This document shows positions 3,290 through 36,599 of a DNA stretch of 64,000 nucleotides, piece after piece. Positions within the stretch are counted from its first letter, which is position 1. Each line of letters starts with the position of its first letter. The notes below the pieces were generated by a model. It saw nothing but the letters and a program-made list of their open reading frames with translations. It was not told where the DNA came from and did no database searches. The translations under genes and the position numbers were made by a program. Origin of the DNA: Flavobacteriales bacterium (GTDB lineage: Bacteria > Bacteroidota > Bacteroidia > Flavobacteriales_D > Crocinitomicaceae); NCBI GenBank assembly GCA_947454525.1, contig CANGJM010000007.1:62001-126000 (forward strand), read 5' to 3'.

Positions 3290-4669
3290 ATGAATACAGC
3301 AAAATACCTTTTGATCGTTTTTGGATTTTCGATTCCACAGTTGTTCGCACAAGCTATTCCGGGAACCCTTAACTGGTACAACGGCGATGGACAAGGAATG
3401 TACACGGATCAAGCATACAAAATGCTGAAAAATAAAAAGTCGCAAACGGTCGTTGTCGCTGTAATTGATTCCGGTGTCGACATTGAACATGAGGATTTAC
3501 AAGGGAAAATTTGGGTGAATCCAAAAGAAATTCCTGGAAACAAAATCGATGATGATAAAAACGGATACGTGGATGACGTTCATGGTTGGAACTTTTTAGG
3601 AAACGCAAATGGTGAAAACCAGGAAAACGCCCGTTTGGAAAAAACCCGTATTTACGCTAAATTAAAAGATAAATACGATGGGGTCGATCCAGCTACCTTA
3701 TTCGATGACACGGAATATTTCATGTATGCCAACGCAAAAGCAGAAGTAGAAGGGGAACTTGAAAACTTAGCGCAGTACAAAGAAGGATTGGCAAATGGAC
3801 AATTCGACGCAGACACAAAGAAATACATTGAAGACCAACTAAATTACAACCTCAACATTTACTACGATGACCGTAGTTTAATTGGAGATAATCCAGATGA
3901 TTTTACGGACACACATTATGGAAATAACGATGTGGAAGGTCCAGAGGCATTACACGGAACGCACGTTTCCGGAATCATCGCTGCTATTCGCGGAAATGGA
4001 AAAGGTGGAGATGGAGTAGCAGATAACGTGAAAATTATGTCTGTGCGCACGGTTCCAAATGGTGACGAACAAGATAAAGATGTTGCGTTAGCCATTCGTT
4101 ACGCAGTGGATAACGGAGCACAAGTAATCAATATGTCCTTTGGCAAGGATTACTCACCACATCAGAACGAAGTATACCAAGCAATGTTATATGCGGACAC
4201 GAACGGAGTTTTAATGATTCATGCAGCAGGAAATGATGCGAAAGATGTGGACGTTGAACCGAATTACCCTTCATCACATATTGAATTGCAAGCGGCTTTC
4301 AGTAATTTATTAACCATCGGAGCATCTACACGCATGAAAGGAGAAGCAATGGTGGCTGAATTTTCGAATTACGGAGCTGAAACAGTTGATGTATTTGCAC
4401 CTGGATTGGAAATTTACAACACTGTTCCGCAAAGTGCTTACATGAATTTACAAGGAACTTCGATGGCTGCGCCAATGGTTGCCGGAGCTGCAGCCATGTT
4501 GAAATCATATTTCCCAAGTTTGAGTATGTGGGAGATTAAAACCATTTTATTGGAAACGGCAACGGTTTATACGGATTTTGATTTTTCGTTCAAATCGGTA
4601 ACAGGTGGTATTGTGAACTTGAAGTCTGCAGTAAAAGCTTGTGAGAAAGCGGTTAAGTCAAAAAACTAA
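3290..4669 (+). CDS. S8 family serine peptidase (subtilase) with insertion, paralog 1
   Basis: 459 residues from the ATG at 3290; an in-frame TTG at 3275 lies inside a promoter-like box and is less likely. Signal peptide, about residues 1-21, ending LFAQA. The catalytic triad is visible: Asp60 (AVIDSG), His222 (HGTHVSG) and Ser391 (GTSMAAP), with oxyanion Asn315 (AAGND). Between the Asp and His regions there is an extra charged, helix-prone segment of about 105 residues (roughly 105-210) absent from classical subtilisins. The chain ends shortly after the peptidase domain with no T9SS sorting domain, so a periplasmic location or another export route is likely. It is clearly paralogous to the gene at 15530. 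Substrate unknown. Confidence 0.93.
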   Translation: MNTAKYLLIVFGFSIPQLFAQAIPGTLNWYNGDGQGMYTDQAYKMLKNKKSQTVVVAVIDSGVDIEHEDLQGKIWVNPKEIPGNKIDDDKNGYVDDVHGWNFLGNANGENQENARLEKTRIYAKLKDKYDGVDPATLFDDTEYFMYANAKAEVEGELENLAQYKEGLANGQFDADTKKYIEDQLNYNLNIYYDDRSLIGDNPDDFTDTHYGNNDVEGPEALHGTHVSGIIAAIRGNGKGGDGVADNVKIMSVRTVPNGDEQDKDVALAIRYAVDNGAQVINMSFGKDYSPHQNEVYQAMLYADTNGVLMIHAAGNDAKDVDVEPNYPSSHIELQAAFSNLLTIGASTRMKGEAMVAEFSNYGAETVDVFAPGLEIYNTVPQSAYMNLQGTSMAAPMVAGAAAMLKSYFPSLSMWEIKTILLETATVYTDFDFSFKSVTGGIVNLKSAVKACEKAVKSKN

Positions 4670-4670
4670 G

Positions 4671-5135
4671 ATGCGGATTGTCCTTTTATCTCTGTTTTTC
4701 TTTAGTGCGTTCATCGCACGAACACAGTCCATTGAAACGCTAACAATCCTCGATAAACTGGTGAACGAATGGCATCTTTCTGCTGCCAAGGCGAATTTCC
4801 AGGAATACTTTAATGCGACGACGAACGATTTCATCTTTTTAGGAACTGCTCCCGGTGAACGATGGAAGAAAGAGGAGTTTCAATCATTTTGTAAACCGTA
4901 TTTCGACAAAGGAAAGGCCTGGGACTTTAAACCGAGCAATCGAATTTGGAATTTTACAGCAAACGGAACAGTCGCATATTTCGACGAGGATCTTGATACA
5001 TGGATGGAGTCCTGCCGTGGAAGTGGCATTTGTGTTTTGGATGCAAACGGAGAGTGGAAAATCGCATACTATAACTTGACAGTCCTCATTGAGAATGAAA
5101 AAATCAAGGAATTTATAAAGCTTCGAAAAAAATAA
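4671..5135 (+). CDS. Exported NTF2/SnoaL-like protein
   Basis: 154 residues from the ATG at 4671, directly after the subtilase stop. A signal peptide (MRIVLLSLFFFSAFIARTQS) suggests export to the periplasm. The mature part resembles the NTF2-like/SnoaL fold: an N-terminal helix with WHLSAAKANFQEYF, then strands with FIFLGTAPGERW, and the C-terminal pattern of a conserved Trp plus WKIAYYNLTVL. This is the 'nuclear transport factor 2 family' type often found as single-domain exported proteins in Bacteroidota. Function unknown; binding of a small ligand is possible. The stop overlaps the prmC start by one base (TAATG), indicating translational coupling. Confidence 0.75.
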   Translation: MRIVLLSLFFFSAFIARTQSIETLTILDKLVNEWHLSAAKANFQEYFNATTNDFIFLGTAPGERWKKEEFQSFCKPYFDKGKAWDFKPSNRIWNFTANGTVAYFDEDLDTWMESCRGSGICVLDANGEWKIAYYNLTVLIENEKIKEFIKLRKK

Positions 5136-6004
5136 TGTTTGTTCCTGACAATACGCTGAAATCCGCAAAAAACTATTTTTACGATCGGCTGGATTCCCGT
5201 TTTTCTACCACAGAATTAAAGTCCATGTGGACACAATTGATTTGTAAACGAATGAATTGGTCCTCCAGTGACTTGTTGTTAAATCAAAGTGAACGCTTGT
5301 CCGAATCCGATTTGTTGTATGTACGAAGTTTCGTAAAAGGATTGATGAATGATGTTCCTTTTCAGTATTTAGTCGGTGAAACCGATTTTTATGGGTTAAA
5401 CATTTCTTGTGATTCCCGCGCATTGATCCCTCGTCCAGAAACGGAGGAATTGGTTGCATGGATTATTGAAACGAATGCTTATCCCAAACGAATCATCGAT
5501 TGCTGCACTGGAACTGCTTGCATTGCACTCGCATTAAAAGCGGCTTACCCGAATGCCAGTGTGCAAGGATTAGACTATTCCAAAGAAGCATTGGACTTAA
5601 GTGCAGAAAATGCTAAAAAGCTGAACTTAGATTTGGAATTGATTCACGAGGATGCGCTACATTTTAGTGAGCGTTTTCTATCGGAGACAAACGAATATGA
5701 CATCATCGTTTCAAATCCACCGTACATTCCGGAACAGGAAAAAAACACGATGTCTGCACATGTGCTCGAACACGAACCGTCGATGGCCCTTTTTGTGGAC
5801 GATCAAGATCCCATTATTTTTTACAAAGAACTCATCAAATTCGCTGATCTCAAATTAGTCAAAGGAGGATTTTTGTTTTTTGAACTTCATGAATTATATG
5901 GGGAGGAAGTAAAGGAATACCTCCAAATCTTTGAATTTGAGAAAATTGAAATCCGAAAAGATTTACAAGGCAAATCTCGTATGTTGAAAGCACAAAAAGT
6001 GTAA
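5135..6004 (+). CDS. prmC: Release factor glutamine N5-methyltransferase
   Basis: 289 residues, normal for PrmC (HemK). It methylates the GGQ glutamine of release factors RF1/RF2 using S-adenosylmethionine. The family hallmark NPPY is at residues 194-197, preceded by the RPETEELV stretch (100-107) also typical of PrmC. The SAM-binding motif I is unusual: D122-C-C-T-G-T-A-C replaces the common DxGTGSGxI, so the first and last glycines are missing. Everything else looks intact, including the N-terminal helical domain. The start overlaps the preceding stop by one base; ligA follows after 9 bases. Confidence 0.94.
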   Translation: MFVPDNTLKSAKNYFYDRLDSRFSTTELKSMWTQLICKRMNWSSSDLLLNQSERLSESDLLYVRSFVKGLMNDVPFQYLVGETDFYGLNISCDSRALIPRPETEELVAWIIETNAYPKRIIDCCTGTACIALALKAAYPNASVQGLDYSKEALDLSAENAKKLNLDLELIHEDALHFSERFLSETNEYDIIVSNPPYIPEQEKNTMSAHVLEHEPSMALFVDDQDPIIFYKELIKFADLKLVKGGFLFFELHELYGEEVKEYLQIFEFEKIEIRKDLQGKSRMLKAQKV

Positions 6005-6010
6005 CTTTAA

Positions 6011-8019
<2,009 letters not shown>

Positions 8020-22354: not shown

Positions 22355-25120
22355 ATGATGATTAAAACGATTCTTTTATCCGCAGTCCTGATGTTCACCG
22401 TAACAGATAATTGGGCTCAAACGTTTGTATTTGGACAACTAACTGGATCTCCAAATATGATTACAACAGGTTGGAATTTAACAGGTAATGCACATATTGG
22501 AGATACTCCAGGAGATGTGGATGCTTTCAATAATGAATTGCTTCTCACGAACAATAGCACTACGCAATCCGGTGGTGTTTTTTACAACACGCCGATTAAT
22601 CTTAATGCATGTCAAACTTGGACCGTGGAATTTGAATACCGGATTGCTGGTGGAAATGCAGCGGATGGTTTGGCTTTTTGCTTCATTGATGTTCCTCCTG
22701 CAGGATTCGTTCTTGGAGGTGGAATTGGTATTCCAGGGACAGCCAATGGACTTAAAGTCGTGATTGATACCTACGACAACTGCAGTCAAGGTGGGACAAA
22801 TCCAGAAATTCAAATTTTCAATGGGATTGGATATAACGAATGTTTGCCAGCAACACCTAAAATTCAGAATTCCGGTGGGTCTTTAAACTATTTGCGTAAC
22901 ACAAACTATCAACCAGTAAAAATCATCTACAATAACGGATTGGTAACGGTTTTGGTAAATAACGTTCAGCTTTTACAGGCGACTTCGCCAGTTAATTTTA
23001 CTGGATATGTTGGATTTACAGCAAGTACTGGAGCTTTGTACGATTTACATTCGATACGAAACGTTACTATTTACACCAATCAAGCTGTGTCTAACGCTGG
23101 AATTGATGCTACGACTTGTTCATCCACAGGCGTGACAATCGGTTCAACTCCGAATCCATTGAACGTATATTCTTGGTCTCCTTCCATCGGACTTTCTTCT
23201 ACAACAGCCGCAAATCCGGTTGTAACTTTACCTAATACTACGGGTGCCCCAATCACACAAACATATACTGTTACAACTTCTTTGGCGTCCAATCCGGGTC
23301 TTTGTCCAACAACGGATCAAATCAATGTGACTATTTATCCTCAATTCAGCCAAACCGTTACCCAAACGCTTTGTAATGGTGGTCCATATGTTTTTAATGG
23401 ACAATCACTTACGCAGTCGGGAACTTACTACGACACCTTAAATACCATTCACAGTTGTGATTCGATTATTACCCTTAATTTGACCATCGGAACAGCGCAA
23501 GCCAATGCTGGTCAGGATCTTTCTATTTGTTCGGATGAAGTCGGAAATCTTGGGGTCATTCCAACTGCCGGATATAATTATTCCTGGTCACCTGCGCTTA
23601 ACTTATCGAATAGTAATACCGCGAATCCAACTGTATCCGCCGTAAATACAACGGGTGTTCCCATCGTTCAAACGTATACCCTGACCTCGAGTTCTGCCTC
23701 AAATCCAAATTTTTGTCAAGCCACGGATCAAGTCCAGGTAACAATCTATCCGAAATTTGTCACCAATATCACGGATACCTTGTGTGATGGGGGTCCATAC
23801 AATTTCAATGGGCAATCGATCACCCAAACAGGAATTTATGTAGATACATTGTCAAGTATCTACAGTTGTGACTCTATTGTAAACTTGAACATTGTTATTT
23901 CAACTGAACCGGTATTTACACTTTTAGATTCGACCATTTGTATCGGAAATTCCTTGACTTTAGCTCCGCAGGGAGTGGGTGGAACCTATACCTATTCATG
24001 GACACCACAAATGGCCATTCCAACCAGTAACGGGAATATGACCTGGAATCCAACTATTTCTAATGAATTCTTTTTACTAGCAACAAATACTTATGGTTGT
24101 ACACATTTAGACTCACTTGATTTAACGGTGAATCCACTACCGATTATGGGATTGGTAGCATCTGCATCCTCTTTGTGTCCGAATGAGAATTTAACCTTAA
24201 CAGCTTCTGGAGCAGCCACCTATTCATGGAGTGGACCTGGAGTTACTTCTGCCACAACGAATGTTCAATCGATTTTACCAACGGGTTCTGGCGTCTTCCA
24301 GGCAATTGGATATACAGCTGAAGGTTGTGTCGATTCCATTCAAACAAATTTCACCTTATTCCCGAAACCCGTTTTAACATTTACGGCAGATCAAGAAATC
24401 TGTGTTGGTCAAATGGCTTCTCTGACGGTTTCCGGTGCAGACACCTATACATGGAATCCGAGCAATCTACTTGGAACACAAGTGTATGTTAGTCCAAGTA
24501 TGACGACAAGCTACCAAGTCATTGGCTTCAATCAATTTAATTGTTCGGATACCGCTGTTTCTGTGCTGACGGTTCATCCAAATCCAGTCGCTAGTATTGG
24601 TGCGGAGCCCTACCTTTTAACAAGTGATTCACCAAATGTGACCTTCACAAATTTATCCACTGGACAGTTAATCTCCACATGGGACTTCGGCGATGGAACA
24701 ATAATGGAAGAGTCAAATGCAACCTTTGAGTATCAATATCCATTTGATGAAGGAAATTATACCGTTCAATTGCTCGTTGAAAGCCAATACGGATGTCTTG
24801 ATTCTACGACGCAAATTATCCAAGTGAAAGGTGATGTCTTGTACTATGTGCCAAACGCCTTTACTCCTGATGGTGATGAACACAATAATACGTTTTCACC
24901 TGTCTTTACTTCCGGATATGTTCCAGGAAGCTACCAATTCGATGTGTACAATCGTTGGGGAGAATTGATATTTTCTTCTCAAAATCCGGAGATTGGTTGG
25001 GATGGATATTATAACTTTGTGAAATGTGGGGAAGGAATGTATGCCTATAACATTCGTTTCGTTGTCAGTTCAACAGGGGAATTGAAATCTATTTTTGGAC
25101 ACGTAAACCTGCTCAAATAA
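22355..25120 (+). CDS. Large T9SS type B cargo: lectin-like, Ig-like repeats, PKD
   Basis: 921 residues with signal peptide (to ..DNWAQ). Residues ~25-240 resemble an L-type/legume-lectin beta-sandwich (ADGLAFCFIDVPPAG, then a Cys pair). Residues 246-519 are two tandem units of about 137 residues, each ending in a Cys-bearing module of the form LCxGGPYxFNGQ...CDSI. Ig-like segments with SYSWxP/CVG patterns follow, then a PKD domain (STWDFGDGT) near 775. The C-terminus (YYVPNAFTPDGDEHNNTF, YNRWGE, WDG) is the CHU_C/type B T9SS sorting domain. Likely a secreted or surface adhesin. A near-consensus -7 box (TAAATTTA) lies at 22313-22320. The next gene is a similar protein. Confidence 0.9.
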   Translation: MMIKTILLSAVLMFTVTDNWAQTFVFGQLTGSPNMITTGWNLTGNAHIGDTPGDVDAFNNELLLTNNSTTQSGGVFYNTPINLNACQTWTVEFEYRIAGGNAADGLAFCFIDVPPAGFVLGGGIGIPGTANGLKVVIDTYDNCSQGGTNPEIQIFNGIGYNECLPATPKIQNSGGSLNYLRNTNYQPVKIIYNNGLVTVLVNNVQLLQATSPVNFTGYVGFTASTGALYDLHSIRNVTIYTNQAVSNAGIDATTCSSTGVTIGSTPNPLNVYSWSPSIGLSSTTAANPVVTLPNTTGAPITQTYTVTTSLASNPGLCPTTDQINVTIYPQFSQTVTQTLCNGGPYVFNGQSLTQSGTYYDTLNTIHSCDSIITLNLTIGTAQANAGQDLSICSDEVGNLGVIPTAGYNYSWSPALNLSNSNTANPTVSAVNTTGVPIVQTYTLTSSSASNPNFCQATDQVQVTIYPKFVTNITDTLCDGGPYNFNGQSITQTGIYVDTLSSIYSCDSIVNLNIVISTEPVFTLLDSTICIGNSLTLAPQGVGGTYTYSWTPQMAIPTSNGNMTWNPTISNEFFLLATNTYGCTHLDSLDLTVNPLPIMGLVASASSLCPNENLTLTASGAATYSWSGPGVTSATTNVQSILPTGSGVFQAIGYTAEGCVDSIQTNFTLFPKPVLTFTADQEICVGQMASLTVSGADTYTWNPSNLLGTQVYVSPSMTTSYQVIGFNQFNCSDTAVSVLTVHPNPVASIGAEPYLLTSDSPNVTFTNLSTGQLISTWDFGDGTIMEESNATFEYQYPFDEGNYTVQLLVESQYGCLDSTTQIIQVKGDVLYYVPNAFTPDGDEHNNTFSPVFTSGYVPGSYQFDVYNRWGELIFSSQNPEIGWDGYYNFVKCGEGMYAYNIRFVVSSTGELKSIFGHVNLLK
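23090..23911 (+). repeat. Two tandem coding repeats of about 137 codons
   Basis: Residues 246-382 and 383-519 of the secreted protein align along their whole length: SNAGxD...C, YSWSPxxxLS, ANPxV, TxxYTxTxS, Cxx(A/T)TDQ, VTIYPxF, then the CxGGPYxFNGQ...CDSI module. The second copy begins at base 23501. Confidence 0.85.
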
Positions 25121-25135
25121 TGCGAAAAAGATAAT

Positions 25136-27892
25136 ATGAAGCGAATTTTAGTACTTTTTTCTTTCTTTTTATTTCTAGGAATAAATGAGTTCAGTTTTTC
25201 GCAGAATATATCCGGAATTGTCAATTCTTATGCTGCCGTTAGTGCAGTAACTCCCAATACAGCAACGTTATCCAATATTGGACCCTTTCAAGTCGGGGAT
25301 AAGGTTCTTATCATTCAAATGAAAGGAGCGACAATTACCACGACGAATACACTTGCATTCGGAACGATTACCGCTCTTGGAAATGCGGGTAATTTTGAAT
25401 TCGCAACCATTGCCGCAATAAATGGAAATACCGTCACGTTTACAAGTAACCTCTGTAAAACGTACACGCCATCTGGCAAAGTACAATTGGTTAAAGTAGC
25501 CGTTTATTCCAATGTGACAATTGTCGGGACGGTCACCGCACAACCATGGAATGGGACAACTGGTGGGGTCGTTGCCATCGAGGCGACAAATAGCATTACG
25601 TTTAACGCGAACATCAATGTTTCTGGTCAGGGATTCGCAGGTGGCACCGTTTTTACCGGATGGTTTTCTTGTGGAGACCCGAATTTCGCCAATCAAAATG
25701 CAGGAAAAAAAGGGGAGGGGATAGCTGTTCCTCCTATCACCATGGATTCCAATCGCGCACCATTAGCGAATGGAGGCGGAGGATCAAATTCAGGAAATCC
25801 GGGTGCCGGTGGTGGCGGAAATGGCGGGATTGGTGGAAGAGGTGGAAATGAATTCTATGGAAGTTGCCAGTTAAACGCCTCATATGGATTGGGTGGATTA
25901 ACTCCGAGTTACGCTTCTTTCAAAGCATATCTTGGCGGAGGTGGAGGCGGTGGATACAAGGATAACGGACTCAATGCAACAGCTGGATCAAATGGTGGTG
26001 GTATGGTTTTTTTAACCTCACCAACGATAAACGGAAATAATTTTACGGTAGATGCCCGAGGAGCTAATGTGATTGGAAATACTGATTCTGAGGGAGCTGG
26101 TGGCGGTGGCGCAGGTGGATATGTGCACTATATGTGCAGTAACACTTCCTCCACGATCAATCTAGATCTTCGAGGCGGTAGCGGAGGTAATATTTTTAGT
26201 ACATTGTGGTCATCGGCTTGTCATGGTCCTGGTGGCGGTGGTGGTGGTGGAGCAGTAAGCTATCAGCAAGGAGCGATTCCTGCCAATGTGACCAATTTAC
26301 TTGCTGGAGGAAATCCGGGAATGGTTCTGCATACAGGTCCTGCTTGTGCCGGAACTTCTCACGGTGCAGCCGGTGGTGCTGCGGGAATTCAAGTGTTTAA
26401 TTATCCTGTTCCAGCGGCTCCAATAACACCGAATTTAGGTCCAAACATTTCCATTTGTTCTGGACAAACAATGACACTTCAACCAACAAATACCTTTAAT
26501 TCATATCTGTGGAGTAACGGTCAGACTACCGCATCTATTTCCATCAATGCACCCGGAATTTATTGGGTGGATGTCCCAAGTGGCTGTACGACTGTCAGAG
26601 ACTCAATTGTTATTGGACTGAGTAGTTTTTCTTTCCAAATTGGACCAGATGTGACAATGTGTCAAGGCGATTCGGTTTCTATCCAATCGGTTGGGACATT
26701 TAGTTCCATCAGCTGGAATACGGGTGCGACGACAACTGCTATACTCGTAAATTCTCCGGGTGTCTATTCAGCTATTGCGACAGATGCCAATGGATGTACC
26801 GAACAGGATTCCATGCAGGTGTTTCAAAATCCAACGGTTTATTCAAGTTACGCTGATTCTATTTGTGCGGGATCGACTTATACTTTTCTAGGTCAAACGA
26901 TAAGTCAAGCTGGAATCTACGTGGATACCTTGCAGAATCTCCTTGGTTGCGATTCCGTTGTCACCTTTCAATTATCCTTGGTTCAACCAACTGCATCAAG
27001 TGTTTCTGCATCCATTTGTGCGGGCGACACGTATGTTTTTAATGGACAGAATTTAACTGTTTCAGGACAGTACTCGGTGACCATTCCATCTGTCTTTGGC
27101 TGCGATTCGCTCGTTCAATTAACCTTAACTGTCAATCCATTGCCAATTGTGACAGTGCAAGATACCATGGTGTGTGTGAATACTCCAGTTACGTTGTTTG
27201 CGAATGGTGCCTTAACGTATGTTTGGGATGTTCCACAGAATGCAAACGGAAGTATTTCTGTTGCTCCTTCTTTAACGACTGGTTATTCCGTTTATGGTGT
27301 GGATGCGTTAGGTTGTGTGTCGAATCCAGTAACCGCTTCGGTTTTTATTGATCCAACGCCACAGCCTAATTTTTACGTAAATCCTGATCAAGTGGAAATT
27401 GACGAGCCAACCATCACCATTTTTAATTTGACTCCAGGAAATAATCAAAACACATGGACCATAGAAGGTTCATCTTTTGTCAATAATCAAAGTTCATTTG
27501 ATTATTCGCTGCCGTTTCAAGAAGGACAATATTCCATTCAATTAGTAAGCGAGACAAATTTAGGATGTAAGGATTCTCTCACCTTGTCAGCAGTTGTTCA
27601 GGACAATGTGGCCTTGTTTATTCCGAATACATTTACGCCCGACGGGGAAGAGTACAATACTGTTTTTCTTCCTGTTTTCTCCACTGGATTTACGCCGAAA
27701 AATTACAGCTTATCCATTTATAATCGATGGGGTGAAACCATTTTTAAATCCACGAATCATACCATTGGTTGGGATGGACGTTTGCAATTCCTGATTTGTC
27801 CAGATGGAATGTATAATTATCATATAAGTTATACCCGAAAAGATGGGGAGAGTCCAATCATCATTGATGGACATGTGAATTTATTGCGATAA
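25136..27892 (+). CDS. Large T9SS type B cargo with glycine-rich domain
   Basis: 918 residues, signal peptide ending FSFSQ. Residues ~25-180 are a beta-rich N-terminal region (VGDKVLIIQMKGA) seen in several Bacteroidota secreted proteins. Residues ~210-420 are extremely glycine-rich (GGGGGGG blocks). Then come Ig-like segments beginning ISICSGQTMTL and CQGDSVSI, two CDS modules (574-668), and further beta domains. The C-terminus (LFIPNTFTPDGEEYNTVF, YNRWGE, GWDGR) is a type B T9SS sorting domain. It begins 15 bases after its neighbour and is probably cotranscribed. Likely a cell-surface or extracellular structural/adhesive protein. Its 3' end overlaps the opposite acpH-like gene by 12 bases. 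Confidence 0.9.
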   Translation: MKRILVLFSFFLFLGINEFSFSQNISGIVNSYAAVSAVTPNTATLSNIGPFQVGDKVLIIQMKGATITTTNTLAFGTITALGNAGNFEFATIAAINGNTVTFTSNLCKTYTPSGKVQLVKVAVYSNVTIVGTVTAQPWNGTTGGVVAIEATNSITFNANINVSGQGFAGGTVFTGWFSCGDPNFANQNAGKKGEGIAVPPITMDSNRAPLANGGGGSNSGNPGAGGGGNGGIGGRGGNEFYGSCQLNASYGLGGLTPSYASFKAYLGGGGGGGYKDNGLNATAGSNGGGMVFLTSPTINGNNFTVDARGANVIGNTDSEGAGGGGAGGYVHYMCSNTSSTINLDLRGGSGGNIFSTLWSSACHGPGGGGGGGAVSYQQGAIPANVTNLLAGGNPGMVLHTGPACAGTSHGAAGGAAGIQVFNYPVPAAPITPNLGPNISICSGQTMTLQPTNTFNSYLWSNGQTTASISINAPGIYWVDVPSGCTTVRDSIVIGLSSFSFQIGPDVTMCQGDSVSIQSVGTFSSISWNTGATTTAILVNSPGVYSAIATDANGCTEQDSMQVFQNPTVYSSYADSICAGSTYTFLGQTISQAGIYVDTLQNLLGCDSVVTFQLSLVQPTASSVSASICAGDTYVFNGQNLTVSGQYSVTIPSVFGCDSLVQLTLTVNPLPIVTVQDTMVCVNTPVTLFANGALTYVWDVPQNANGSISVAPSLTTGYSVYGVDALGCVSNPVTASVFIDPTPQPNFYVNPDQVEIDEPTITIFNLTPGNNQNTWTIEGSSFVNNQSSFDYSLPFQEGQYSIQLVSETNLGCKDSLTLSAVVQDNVALFIPNTFTPDGEEYNTVFLPVFSTGFTPKNYSLSIYNRWGETIFKSTNHTIGWDGRLQFLICPDGMYNYHISYTRKDGESPIIIDGHVNLLR
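25768..26395 (+). repeat. Glycine-rich coding stretch
   Basis: GGN/GGT repeats encode runs such as GGGG, GAGGGGNGG and GGGGGGG, interspersed with cysteine- and aromatic-containing segments. Base composition here is visibly more G-rich than in neighbouring DNA. Confidence 0.8.
26855..27139 (+). repeat. Two tandem Cys-Asp-Ser modules (95 codons)
   Basis: Two copies of the module SICAGxTYxFxGQ...SGxY...GCDS(V/L)VxxxL, at residues 574-668 of the secreted protein, matching modules in the proteins at 22355 and 34626. Confidence 0.8.
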
Positions 27893-34625: not shown

Positions 34626-36599
34626 ATGAAATTAATTCTACTTATTAGTATCATCGCCATTTATTTCAATTTTTCCGCTCAAAACGCCATTCAATTAGAT
34701 GGTTTAAATGATATTGTTACGGTAAATTACCCGGGGATTTTAGGTGATAATCCGAGAACGGTCGAAGCATGGATAAAAACTTCTTCAAATTACAATCCTA
34801 ATACAGGAGGTGTTCAAGGTGTCATTTCGGATTGGGGAACTTTTACGAATAGTAATCGATCGACGTTTAATGTTTTGTTTAACAATGCGATCCGTTTTGA
34901 GGTAAATGGAAACGGAGTGAATGGTACCATTCCTGTGAATGATGGAAATTGGCACCATGTAGCAATGGTGTATGATCCCTTAGCGACCTTAAAAGTTTCA
35001 TTGTATGTAGATGGTATTTTGGATGTAGCAGGAAACTTAACCATTCCCGTGAATACCCTAAGTACGTATGTCCGCATTGGACAACGTGTGGATGGACTTC
35101 ATTTTTTTAACGGGAAAATTGATGAATATCGACTTTGGTCCGTTGCGCTAACGCAAGCTCAAATCATTGCCAACAAGGACAAAGAGCTTTGTCATTTAAA
35201 TGATCCTAACTTAAAGCTTTATTACACCTTTAATCAGGGTGTTGCAAGTGGAATAAATACAGGTCAAACAATTGTGCATGATTGGAGTCCAAATCAAAAA
35301 GATGGAACGTTGACAAATGTTCAATTAACGGGAAGTTCATCTAATTGGGTGACAGGACAAGTGCTGAATCCAGGTTTTTCTTCTTCCAATTCGATTCTGT
35401 CAAGTTGCGGTACGTATACCTCAAGCTTGGATAATCAAGTTTATTCGACAAGTGGTGTTTACACGGTAAATGGATTGAATCAGGCTGGATGTGATTCCAT
35501 TCAAACGTTGAATCTAACCGTTGTTCCGACCTATATAACCAGTTTTACCGCCGCTAGTTGTGGTTCATATGTTTGGTCTCAAAATGGTCAGAGTTATTCG
35601 AATACGGGTATTTATTTCGATACACTTACAGCACAGAACGGTTGTGATTCCATTCTGAAATTGGATTTGACGATCACGCCAATTTCTTCAAATGTCCTTC
35701 ACGTGTTTAGTTGCGATGCTTATACTTGGGCGCAAACAGGAAACACTTACATGGATTCAGGAACCTATTCAGATACCTTGAGTTCAATTTCAGGTTGTGA
35801 TTCTGTGATTGTATTATTGTTAGACATTTACCCTCAAGTTAGTACAGATTTAACGGTTACCTCGTGCGATAGCTATTATTGGTCCTCGACAAATATGAAC
35901 TACACGAATTCTGGGAATTATTCGGTCGTATTATCCTCGATGTTTGGCTGTGATTCCACAGTTATCTTGCATTTGACTTTAAATCAATCCGATACGACGA
36001 ATCAACTACTGGCTTCATGTTTTCCTATTACCTGGCAGGAAGCTGGAATTGTCATGGATCAATCGGGAATATTTACTCATGCCTTCAGTAACGTCAACGG
36101 TTGCGACTCCATTGTTCAAATTGATTTTTTGTTGAATACATTGACTGCAAGTGTTACCTTGGATGAAACAACAGGCACCTTAAGCACCGTTCCACTTGGA
36201 GCGATTTATACGCTTATTTCATGTGAAAACAATAGTGAACTTGTTACTTGGAACTCGCCTAATTTTGATTTACCGGACAATGGTGTATATGCTGTTGTGG
36301 TGAATCAAAATGGCTGTGTTGACACTTCGGACTGTGTGACTTTTAGTAGTGCCAATTTAACCAATCAAAAGGAAGATTTTTTAAGAATTTCCCCCAATCC
36401 TTGTCAAGATGCATTGTTGATTCATCTACTCAATGGAGATATACACGCGTTTTATGTGTTTGATACAAAAGGAGCTTGTTTAATTCAAGAAGTTTTTGGT
36501 TCAGCAGTAAAGGACTGTTCTGTTTCCACGAAGGAATTACTGCCAGGAATTTATTTCCTTCAAGTGAATGGAGTGGTAATCAAATTTATGAAGGAATAG
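34626..36599 (+). CDS. T9SS type A cargo: LamG domain plus five CDS modules
   Basis: 657 residues with a signal peptide ending NFSAQN. Residues ~20-215 are a LamG/concanavalin-like domain (LDGLNDIVTV, VEAWIKTS, GNWHHVAMVYD, FFNGKIDEYRLWSVALTQAQI), usually sugar-binding or adhesive. Residues 258-505 are five tandem modules of about 50 residues, each with an N-terminal Cys and a C-terminal GCDS. After a further beta segment, the C-terminus (ISPNPCQDALLIHLL, then LLPGIYFLQV) is a type A T9SS sorting domain, removed during export. Secreted or surface protein, probably adhesive. The 3' end overlaps the CPBP gene by 14 bases. Confidence 0.9.
   Translation: MKLILLISIIAIYFNFSAQNAIQLDGLNDIVTVNYPGILGDNPRTVEAWIKTSSNYNPNTGGVQGVISDWGTFTNSNRSTFNVLFNNAIRFEVNGNGVNGTIPVNDGNWHHVAMVYDPLATLKVSLYVDGILDVAGNLTIPVNTLSTYVRIGQRVDGLHFFNGKIDEYRLWSVALTQAQIIANKDKELCHLNDPNLKLYYTFNQGVASGINTGQTIVHDWSPNQKDGTLTNVQLTGSSSNWVTGQVLNPGFSSSNSILSSCGTYTSSLDNQVYSTSGVYTVNGLNQAGCDSIQTLNLTVVPTYITSFTAASCGSYVWSQNGQSYSNTGIYFDTLTAQNGCDSILKLDLTITPISSNVLHVFSCDAYTWAQTGNTYMDSGTYSDTLSSISGCDSVIVLLLDIYPQVSTDLTVTSCDSYYWSSTNMNYTNSGNYSVVLSSMFGCDSTVILHLTLNQSDTTNQLLASCFPITWQEAGIVMDQSGIFTHAFSNVNGCDSIVQIDFLLNTLTASVTLDETTGTLSTVPLGAIYTLISCENNSELVTWNSPNFDLPDNGVYAVVVNQNGCVDTSDCVTFSSANLTNQKEDFLRISPNPCQDALLIHLLNGDIHAFYVFDTKGACLIQEVFGSAVKDCSVSTKELLPGIYFLQVNGVVIKFMKE
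35397..36140 (+). repeat. Five tandem Cys...GCDS coding modules
   Basis: Five copies of about 50 codons. Each runs SC-x-x-Y-x-W..., a G-x-Y segment about 18 residues after the Cys, then (G)CDS(I/V/T) and a hydrophobic L-x-L-x-(I/L) strand. The same module occurs twice each in the proteins at 22355 and 25136. Confidence 0.85.

Follow-up and report, generated by a model that had tools for sequence, protein, structure and literature searches.

How are the cysteines of a short repeated module paired in the surface proteins that carry it? The question is raised by three genes in a stretch of 64,000 nucleotides (the window, meaning this whole stretch) of a Flavobacteriales bacterium of the family Crocinitomicaceae (assembly GCA_947454525.1, contig CANGJM010000007.1, positions 62,001 to 126,000 of the forward strand). 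The three genes encode cargo of the type IX secretion system (T9SS) and share a module of about 50 residues with two cysteines, hereafter C1 and C2. A first-pass annotation of the sequence had proposed that this pair clamps a single module. Instead, cysteine losses were found to pair C1 of one module with C2 of the next, C1(n) with C2(n+1). Since the loss is concerted between modules and not within them, a disulfide staple is placed between modules. Probably, the module is a stalk or spacer unit of T9SS-exported surface proteins, stapled across each joint in what would be a disulfide ladder.

The nine copies that had been reported in three genes (five, two and two) are all present. The features are listed below, with genes named after their first base; module boundaries come from translation and alignment, and domains of the three genes from profile matches, except where judged by eye.

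34626..36599, + strand: cargo gene, 657 amino acids (aa), with a signal peptide, LamG_3, five modules, a Cys-rich immunoglobulin-like (Ig-like) domain and a type A sorting domain (signal peptide and Ig-like domain judged by eye)
35376..35528, + strand: module 1 of 34626 (C261, C289)
35529..35681, + strand: module 2 of 34626 (C312, C340), first third of the AlphaFold2 model
35682..35834, + strand: module 3 of 34626 (C363, C391), in the AlphaFold2 model
35835..35987, + strand: module 4 of 34626 (C414, C442), in the AlphaFold2 model
35988..36140, + strand: module 5 of 34626 (C465, C493)
base 36315, + strand: NGC cysteine (residue 564) in the domain after module 5 of 34626, proposed partner of C1 of module 5
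22355..25120, + strand: cargo gene, 921 aa, with an L-type lectin, Ig-like repeats alternating with two modules, three further Ig-like repeats, a PKD domain with one Cys (C814) and a type B sorting domain (Ig-like repeats judged by eye)
23342..23494, + strand: module 1 of 22355 (C340, C368)
23753..23905, + strand: module 2 of 22355 (C477, C505)
24794..24796, + strand: lone Cys codon in the terminal PKD of 22355 (YGCLDS, C814), proposed ladder end
25136..27892, + strand: cargo gene, 918 aa, with an AgmC_N-like glycine-rich half, Ig-like repeats, two modules, a PKD-like domain with one Cys (C811) and a type B sorting domain (Ig-like and PKD-like domains judged by eye)
26834..26986, + strand: module 1 of 25136 (C577, C605), in an AlphaFold2 model
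26987..27139, + strand: module 2 of 25136 (C628, C656), in an AlphaFold2 model
27566..27568, + strand: lone Cys codon in the terminal PKD-like domain of 25136 (LGCKDS, C811), proposed ladder end

The gap-free alignment of the nine window copies spans 51 columns, and C11, G27, C39, D40 and S41 are identical in 9/9. The spacing of the two cysteines, previously described as fixed, is indeed 28 residues in 9/9 copies. Both tandem arrays (34626, 25136) have a period of 51; the modules of 22355 are not adjacent and are separated by a longer Ig-like repeat. The GCDS motif of the first description holds in seven copies and is replaced by SCDS in two, CDS itself being present in 9/9, and the GxY segment in the middle of the module holds in eight copies, with GxF in one. 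The array of 34626 starts at 35376, so that the start given formerly (35397) lies 21 bases downstream of the boundary used here, while its end (36140) is the same. All three proteins are T9SS cargo by a sorting domain over the curated cut-off, and the C-termini are of the types already assigned: type A in 34626 (TIGR04183, 28.8 bits, cut-off 23) and type B in 22355 and 25136 (TIGR04131, 38.1 and 38.0 bits, cut-off 35; CHU_C, 44.0 and 44.3 bits, cut-off 27). Elsewhere the module is followed by tails of type A, of type B or of a third, unnamed kind, in agreement with the earlier remark that it occurs with different export signals.

An iterated profile was grown from the nine window copies and counted in loci (prefix L) of the own genome and of named relatives, without deduplication. 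It recovered 570 modules at 18 bits or more, against a maximum of 10.6 bits (first model) and 6.9 bits (last model) in reversed-sequence controls, so that the recurrence of the module exceeds chance. The family consensus is STTSTETVTACDSYTWPVNGQTYTTSGTYTDTLTNAAGCDSIVTLNLTINA. Cysteine occupies C1 in 91% of 554 and C2 in 99% of 566 aligned modules; S41 (91%) and L47 (97%) are also conserved in the iterated alignment, as are the aromatic residues Y14, W16 and Y23. A C1-C2 spacing of 28 is preferred (299/492 modules), the distance from neighbour to neighbour is 51 in 220/413 cases, 49 in 74 and 53 in 36, and the longest tandem run comprises 22 copies.

If two cysteines are bonded to each other, the loss of one should accompany the loss of the other. 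This was counted strictly, with a model blind to both Cys columns that anchors on C2 and accepts any Cys before it (179 deduplicated proteins, 970 modules, 960 of them scored, 720 adjacent pairs; 110 hits set aside), and laxly, with the shape filter off (1054 modules; 26 hits set aside). Within the module, the strict count gave 873 modules with both cysteines, 21 without C2 only, 66 without C1 only and none without both, i.e. 87/960 modules without one Cys; the lax count gave 946, 25, 73 and 0, with 98 single losses. Between neighbours, C1(n) and C2(n+1) were both present in 707 strict pairs, C2 was lost alone in 0, C1 was lost alone in 2 and both were lost in 11 (Fisher p = 1.2e-22, not corrected for descent); the corresponding lax figures are 765, 1, 7 and 11 (p = 2e-19). 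The control pairing, C2(n) with C1(n+1), showed no association in the strict count (677/28/14/1, p = 0.46), and the lax count gave 728/37/16/3 (p = 0.07). Indeed, 10 of the strict C2 losses have no preceding neighbour and the other 11 stand behind a C1-less neighbour. Three earlier runs, which missed sub-threshold neighbours or hits cut at the N-end, gave 407/0/6/2, 673/0/2/2 and 646/0/11/5 (both present/C2 lost alone/C1 lost alone/both lost); one module with neither Cys appeared in the last of these, where hits were cut at the N-end.

A disulfide between C1 and C2 of the same module would account for the near-constant presence of both cysteines and for their preferred spacing. This candidate was rejected on the co-loss counts, as no double loss was found among the one-Cys modules of either count. 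The same absence speaks against the disulfide between the two sheets that marks a classical Ig domain. Two further observations, both presented below, tell against the clamp: entire groups of modules near the stop codon have C2 only, and the strand register would set C1 and C2 at opposite poles. It is considered very improbable.

The 11 co-losses were found in L117 (2), L122 (4), L146 (4) and L114 (1). It could be argued that the cysteines are kept for packing or as free thiols, with no regular disulfide, and that the co-losses are duplicated blocks inherited together: they occur in four proteins, three of those in L146 are related (44-49% identity), and some arrays would leave a C2 unpaired. 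However, the remaining co-loss pairs are only 21-38% identical, which suggests at least four events and probably more, and the association is still at 1e-9 with one event per protein and assumed margins. Both control pairings, which come from the same proteins with the same inheritance, show no significant link. Such an explanation by packing and shared descent is therefore regarded as decidedly unlikely, and the staple between neighbouring modules, proposed here from the pattern of residue losses, is retained.

With regard to the fold, an AlphaFold2 run on modules 2-4 of 34626, together with 93 further rows, gave a predicted local distance difference test (pLDDT) score of 93.4 and a predicted TM-score (pTM) of 0.63. 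The predicted strands per module are 2-11, 14-16, 21-23, 27-33 and 41-50, the second and third shrinking to two residues in the middle module. The two-module pair of 25136 gave the same strand plan (pLDDT 88.8, pTM 0.54). As pTM is moderate, the angle between modules is not settled by these models. Single modules were compared with Ig-like domains by VIA-align: the best rows have 1.4-2.4 Å over 45-51 residues, and the matches listed extend to 3.0 Å and 45-52 residues, with Z up to 5.5. Two modules aligned over 102/102 residues with part of the grappling hook protein A (GhpA) in seven entries, a part that at about 160 residues has the length of two domains (3.3-4.6 Å, Z 4.8-5.6, 5.6 being the highest Z among the matches listed). 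The module is thus predicted to be a minimal Ig-like beta-sandwich of about 51 residues, and the recurrent beta module recognised in the first-pass annotation is supported. Since Z stays below 8 (at most 5.6) and mammalian Ig pairs equal GhpA in Z, with a larger root-mean-square deviation, no strong kinship of fold is claimed, and the Ig-like match would reflect a shared arrangement, not a proven descent.

Residue couplings among 892 modules (effective number 424) bear on where the two cysteines lie in this predicted fold. Strand 1 runs parallel to strand 5 at an offset of 39 (mean z 1.02, 10 pairs), which is the best strand 1-strand 5 diagonal with at least 8 pairs, and strand 4 runs antiparallel to strand 5 at a sum of 74 (mean z 1.11, 11 pairs). 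The offset 39 register aligns C1 (11) with residue 50 and C2 (39) with residue 0, so that the two cysteines are about ten strand residues apart. This register would place C1 and C2 at opposite poles of one module, about 30 Å apart at 3.3 Å per residue, and C1(n) and C2(n+1) both at the joint between modules, a geometry in agreement with the co-loss result; the coupling signal is modest, and its support is weak. A check proposed at the outset, namely whether the cysteine pair is close within or between modules, is answered in favour of the latter and not the former, by covariation and inferred geometry rather than by distances.

The mechanism could then be as follows: (i) strand 1 would end at C1, at the far pole, and the last strand would begin just past C2, at the near pole; (ii) in stacked modules, C1(n) would meet C2(n+1) at the joint and form a disulfide, giving a ladder shifted by one domain, which may continue into neighbouring Ig-like or PKD domains; (iii) the ladder would often end near the sorting domain, in a domain with C2 and without C1. 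The C1(n)-C2(n+1) bond itself is a putative one. T9SS cargo crosses the periplasm, where disulfides form, and arrays can therefore be stapled before export; bond formation would take place in this oxidising compartment. In 34626 the predicted ladder is C261-C340, C312-C391, C363-C442, C414-C493 and C465-C564, and in 22355 and 25136 it would end at the lone PKD cysteines C814 and C811. The result would be a stiff, shear-resistant stalk bearing lectin or LamG tips.

The ends of the arrays are consistent with a terminator of this kind. In a set of 108 module-bearing proteins (16 were dropped as truncated or masked), the C1 column is without Cys in 40/40 last modules that lie no more than 100 residues from the stop, while C1 is present in 50/52 last modules further from the stop and in 317/323 other modules. 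Inspected by eye, the 40 include type A tails, among them two from Bacteroidales (L099, L131), as well as two of type B (L074, L104) and ten with the third unnamed tail. When loci were fetched with a C1-bearing query, five candidates were obtained: L184 and L193 are without C1, L188 has C1 and a Cys directly after the module, and two were set aside, L204 because it is masked and L153 because it showed no sorting domain.

The third C-terminal tail has about 50 residues (ITDLNGK...RKN...FIYEDGTVERV) and stands behind a C1-less module in ten frames (L069, L096, L106, L115, L116, L121 with two, L129, L132 and L145). A scan of two of these tails (L115, L132) at E ≤ 0.01 gave no match to a tail family of Pfam or NCBIfam. 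It is possibly a further sorting signal.

Several observations weigh against the proposed ladder. The co-losses are confined to four proteins, all from metagenome-assembled genomes labelled Bacteroidales, Paludibacteraceae or Bacteroidia. The eight single losses of the lax count comprise two masked stretches (L088, L076), two losses in which the neighbouring domain is of a different type (L172, L073) and four that stand (L117 324, L088 1153, L131 882 and L146 823, the last with an extra Cys in the linker). The two strict-count exceptions are the L088 masked stretch and a first-of-run copy of L117 whose N-terminal half is unmatched; the strict filter excluded a third, L146 823, which is present in the lax count and in two earlier runs. 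The direct C1(n)-C2(n+1) coupling is modest, with a z of 2.5, which ranks 17th among inter-module pairs and fifth among different-column pairs, the C1-C2 coupling within the module has a z of 1.9 (rank 41/1128), and some short diagonals, of 4-5 pairs, outscore those used for the register (antiparallel sum 58, 1.82; parallel offset 10, 1.57). Close homologues make up many of the 40 juxta-stop cases, and in the query by which these frames were retrieved 4/5 rows were without C1. In a deduplicated set counting any Cys near C1, 41 juxta-stop modules are without C1 and 6 with it: L126 and L076 (masked tails, excluded from the 40/40 count), L204 (masked), L099 (two displaced cysteines), L153 (followed by a Cys-bearing domain) and L188 (a Cys directly after the module). 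In L058, from the own genome, the last domain before the C-terminal domain (CTD) retains both cysteines. Finally, array ends were counted for 224 first modules (3/227 omitted as masked) and 190 last modules (5/195 omitted as masked): 8/210 C2-bearing first modules have no Cys in the preceding 110 aa, 8/14 first modules without C2 do have one there, 2/138 last modules with C1 are followed by no Cys within 150 aa (one ends at its own module), and 13/52 last modules without C1 are followed by one within that distance, six of them resembling ordinary Ig-like repeats.

A broader rule may also be formulated for the T9SS surface proteins of Bacteroidota: Ig-like domains of several families (the module, the longer Ig-like repeats, the terminal PKD) would be joined by a one-domain-shifted disulfide ladder, running from the tip domain to a C1-less, C2-bearing terminator before the sorting signal, and the mature stalk would be one covalent chain with few free thiols. 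This generalisation is tentative and rather doubtful, because it gained little from two small tests made on tails of type B. A single Cys in the final 95 aa was found in 3/10 usable tails of the module loci, and 1/8 usable tails of the CHU_C loci had exactly one Cys, the pattern having missed the other 22 of 30. The terminal PKD as a general terminator is not established, the tails being of mixed domain types; this part of the proposal rests on two window proteins and on L239.

At 3706-7326, locus L239 (LR745206.1, 634,780 bp, labelled uncultured phage) encodes a type B T9SS cargo (TIGR04131, 50.8 bits); it carries roughly nine copies of the module, and its terminal PKD has a single Cys. The record is either a huge phage with T9SS cargo or a misnamed record. 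The NCBIfam MiiA motif matches 15 residues of L239 at 27.7 bits (cut-off 24); no link between MiiA and the module was found in the best 5 of 901 literature matches. In a viral structure library, the best match of the three-module model is A0A8D9FS04, an uncultured marine phage protein (E 1.7e-12, 24% identity), and locus L240 (from an IMG/VR contig of 128,949 bp) contains, at 4521-7193, an 891-aa frame with two modules and without a recognised T9SS tail.

Could the module itself bind a ligand rather than form a stalk? In some proteins a single module lies near the CTD, so that it is not always a long spacer, and the conserved aromatics could be at the surface or in the core. On the other hand, a recognised lectin or LamG domain lies N-terminal of the modules in 2/3 window proteins, and the tandem runs reach the lengths given above. 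A ligand-binding role is thus unlikely, and the role of stalk unit is preferred.

As for an existing family, no characterised Pfam or NCBIfam family scored over its cut-off on the module. In the three window proteins, nothing in Pfam and NCBIfam at E ≤ 10 was over cut-off on the modules, and a chance-level NuoB match (14.3 bits, cut-off 116) touches module 5 of 34626. SprB (PF13573), the repeat from which the module had been distinguished, was absent from these matches. When 94 three-module rows were searched at E ≤ 1, the matches were scattered over 181 Pfam and 90 NCBIfam families; among the matches listed, the commonest are PKD_4 in Pfam (10/94 rows, best E 7.8e-5) and NuoB in NCBIfam (22/94 rows, best E 3.4e-4), and the lowest E is 2.7e-6, for DUF4352 (3 rows). 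PHROGs matches were likewise scattered, with at most 19/94 rows per family, and PDB sequence searches with the module returned chance-level rows only. From its sequence, the module is placed in no Pfam or NCBIfam family searched, at the level of the cut-offs. In the excerpts of the literature searched, neither the module nor a recurring disulfide between domains of T9SS proteins was found described.

The module is widely distributed. The host genome has 28 matches at E ≤ 0.01, distributed over 15 open frames; some are weak and probably represent ordinary Ig-like repeats. The nine-copy profile matched 20/296 genomes sampled across the phylum (E ≤ 1e-3), and a broader 50-row module profile (A5) matched 59/60 genomes of the host's family, Crocinitomicaceae (E ≤ 1e-3), as well as 231/395 genomes and 133/196 genera of the host's class (E ≤ 1e-5). 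A scan of named genomes gave at least 522 relatives, and 80 loci were kept, mostly labelled Crocinitomicaceae, Cryomorphaceae, Fluviicola, other Flavobacteriales, Bacteroidetes or Bacteroidales. Since the profile matches 231/395 class genomes and no curated family was found in the libraries searched, much of the length of many surface proteins probably lacks annotation. Two further observations concern the own genome: L059 (8161-10749) carries a sister repeat that is shorter than the module, at about 45 residues, has NCVT where the module has GCDS and adjoins one module with GGDS, and the glycine-rich half of 25136-27892 matches NCBIfam AgmC_N (NF047640, adventurous gliding motility) at 186 bits, below the cut-off of 275.

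If the ladder holds, disulfide connectivity could be predicted from sequence alone, and stalks could be stiffened without isopeptide bonds or calcium. Tandem Ig-like surface stalks as such are of a kind already known. Aureispira is a genus of Bacteroidota, and GhpA of Aureispira sp. (PDB 9flp, 9fls, 9flu, 9flv, 9flw, 9flx, 9fly, 9g8b) is a surface protein with tandem Ig-like domains, as here. Its entry 9flp is the best Foldseek PDB match of the module model (E 3.9e-5, TM 0.31 by query), and the GhpA stretch aligned to window protein 22355 bears Cys near both module Cys positions; its domains are of about 80 residues by the aligned ranges, whereas the module has 51, and GhpA was not found at E ≤ 10 when the module profiles A1 and A4 were searched against PDB sequences. 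The ordinary Ig-like repeats of Bacteroidota (in the neighbourhood of PF19081, Ig_7) occur in the same proteins, have a similar motif order (C..YxW..G..sGtY..GC) and cross-match weakly to the module model; unlike the module, they have about 75-80 residues by eye and are without CDS. Ig_7 itself matches only a stretch neighbouring the modules in 25136, at 12 bits (cut-off 27.3).

Three systems described in the literature can be set beside the module. In gingipain RgpB, an IgSF domain directly before the T9SS CTD was suggested to be a spacer or insulator (PMC4804311); it is a single domain without an array, in contrast to the arrays formed here. Cytophagalysin is a predicted multi-Ig-like protein whose last domain may serve as the T9SS CTD, and its model contains one disulfide, between the catalytic domain and D3 (PMC11674741); this is a single predicted bond at one joint, between longer Ig-like domains, whereas a repeated staple is proposed here. 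Lastly, in covalently cross-linked adhesin stalks, for example that of the giant Mobiluncus mulieris adhesin, long Ig-like runs are stiffened by covalent bonds (PMC10619420); these cross-links are described per domain, whereas the bond of the module would join each domain to its neighbour.
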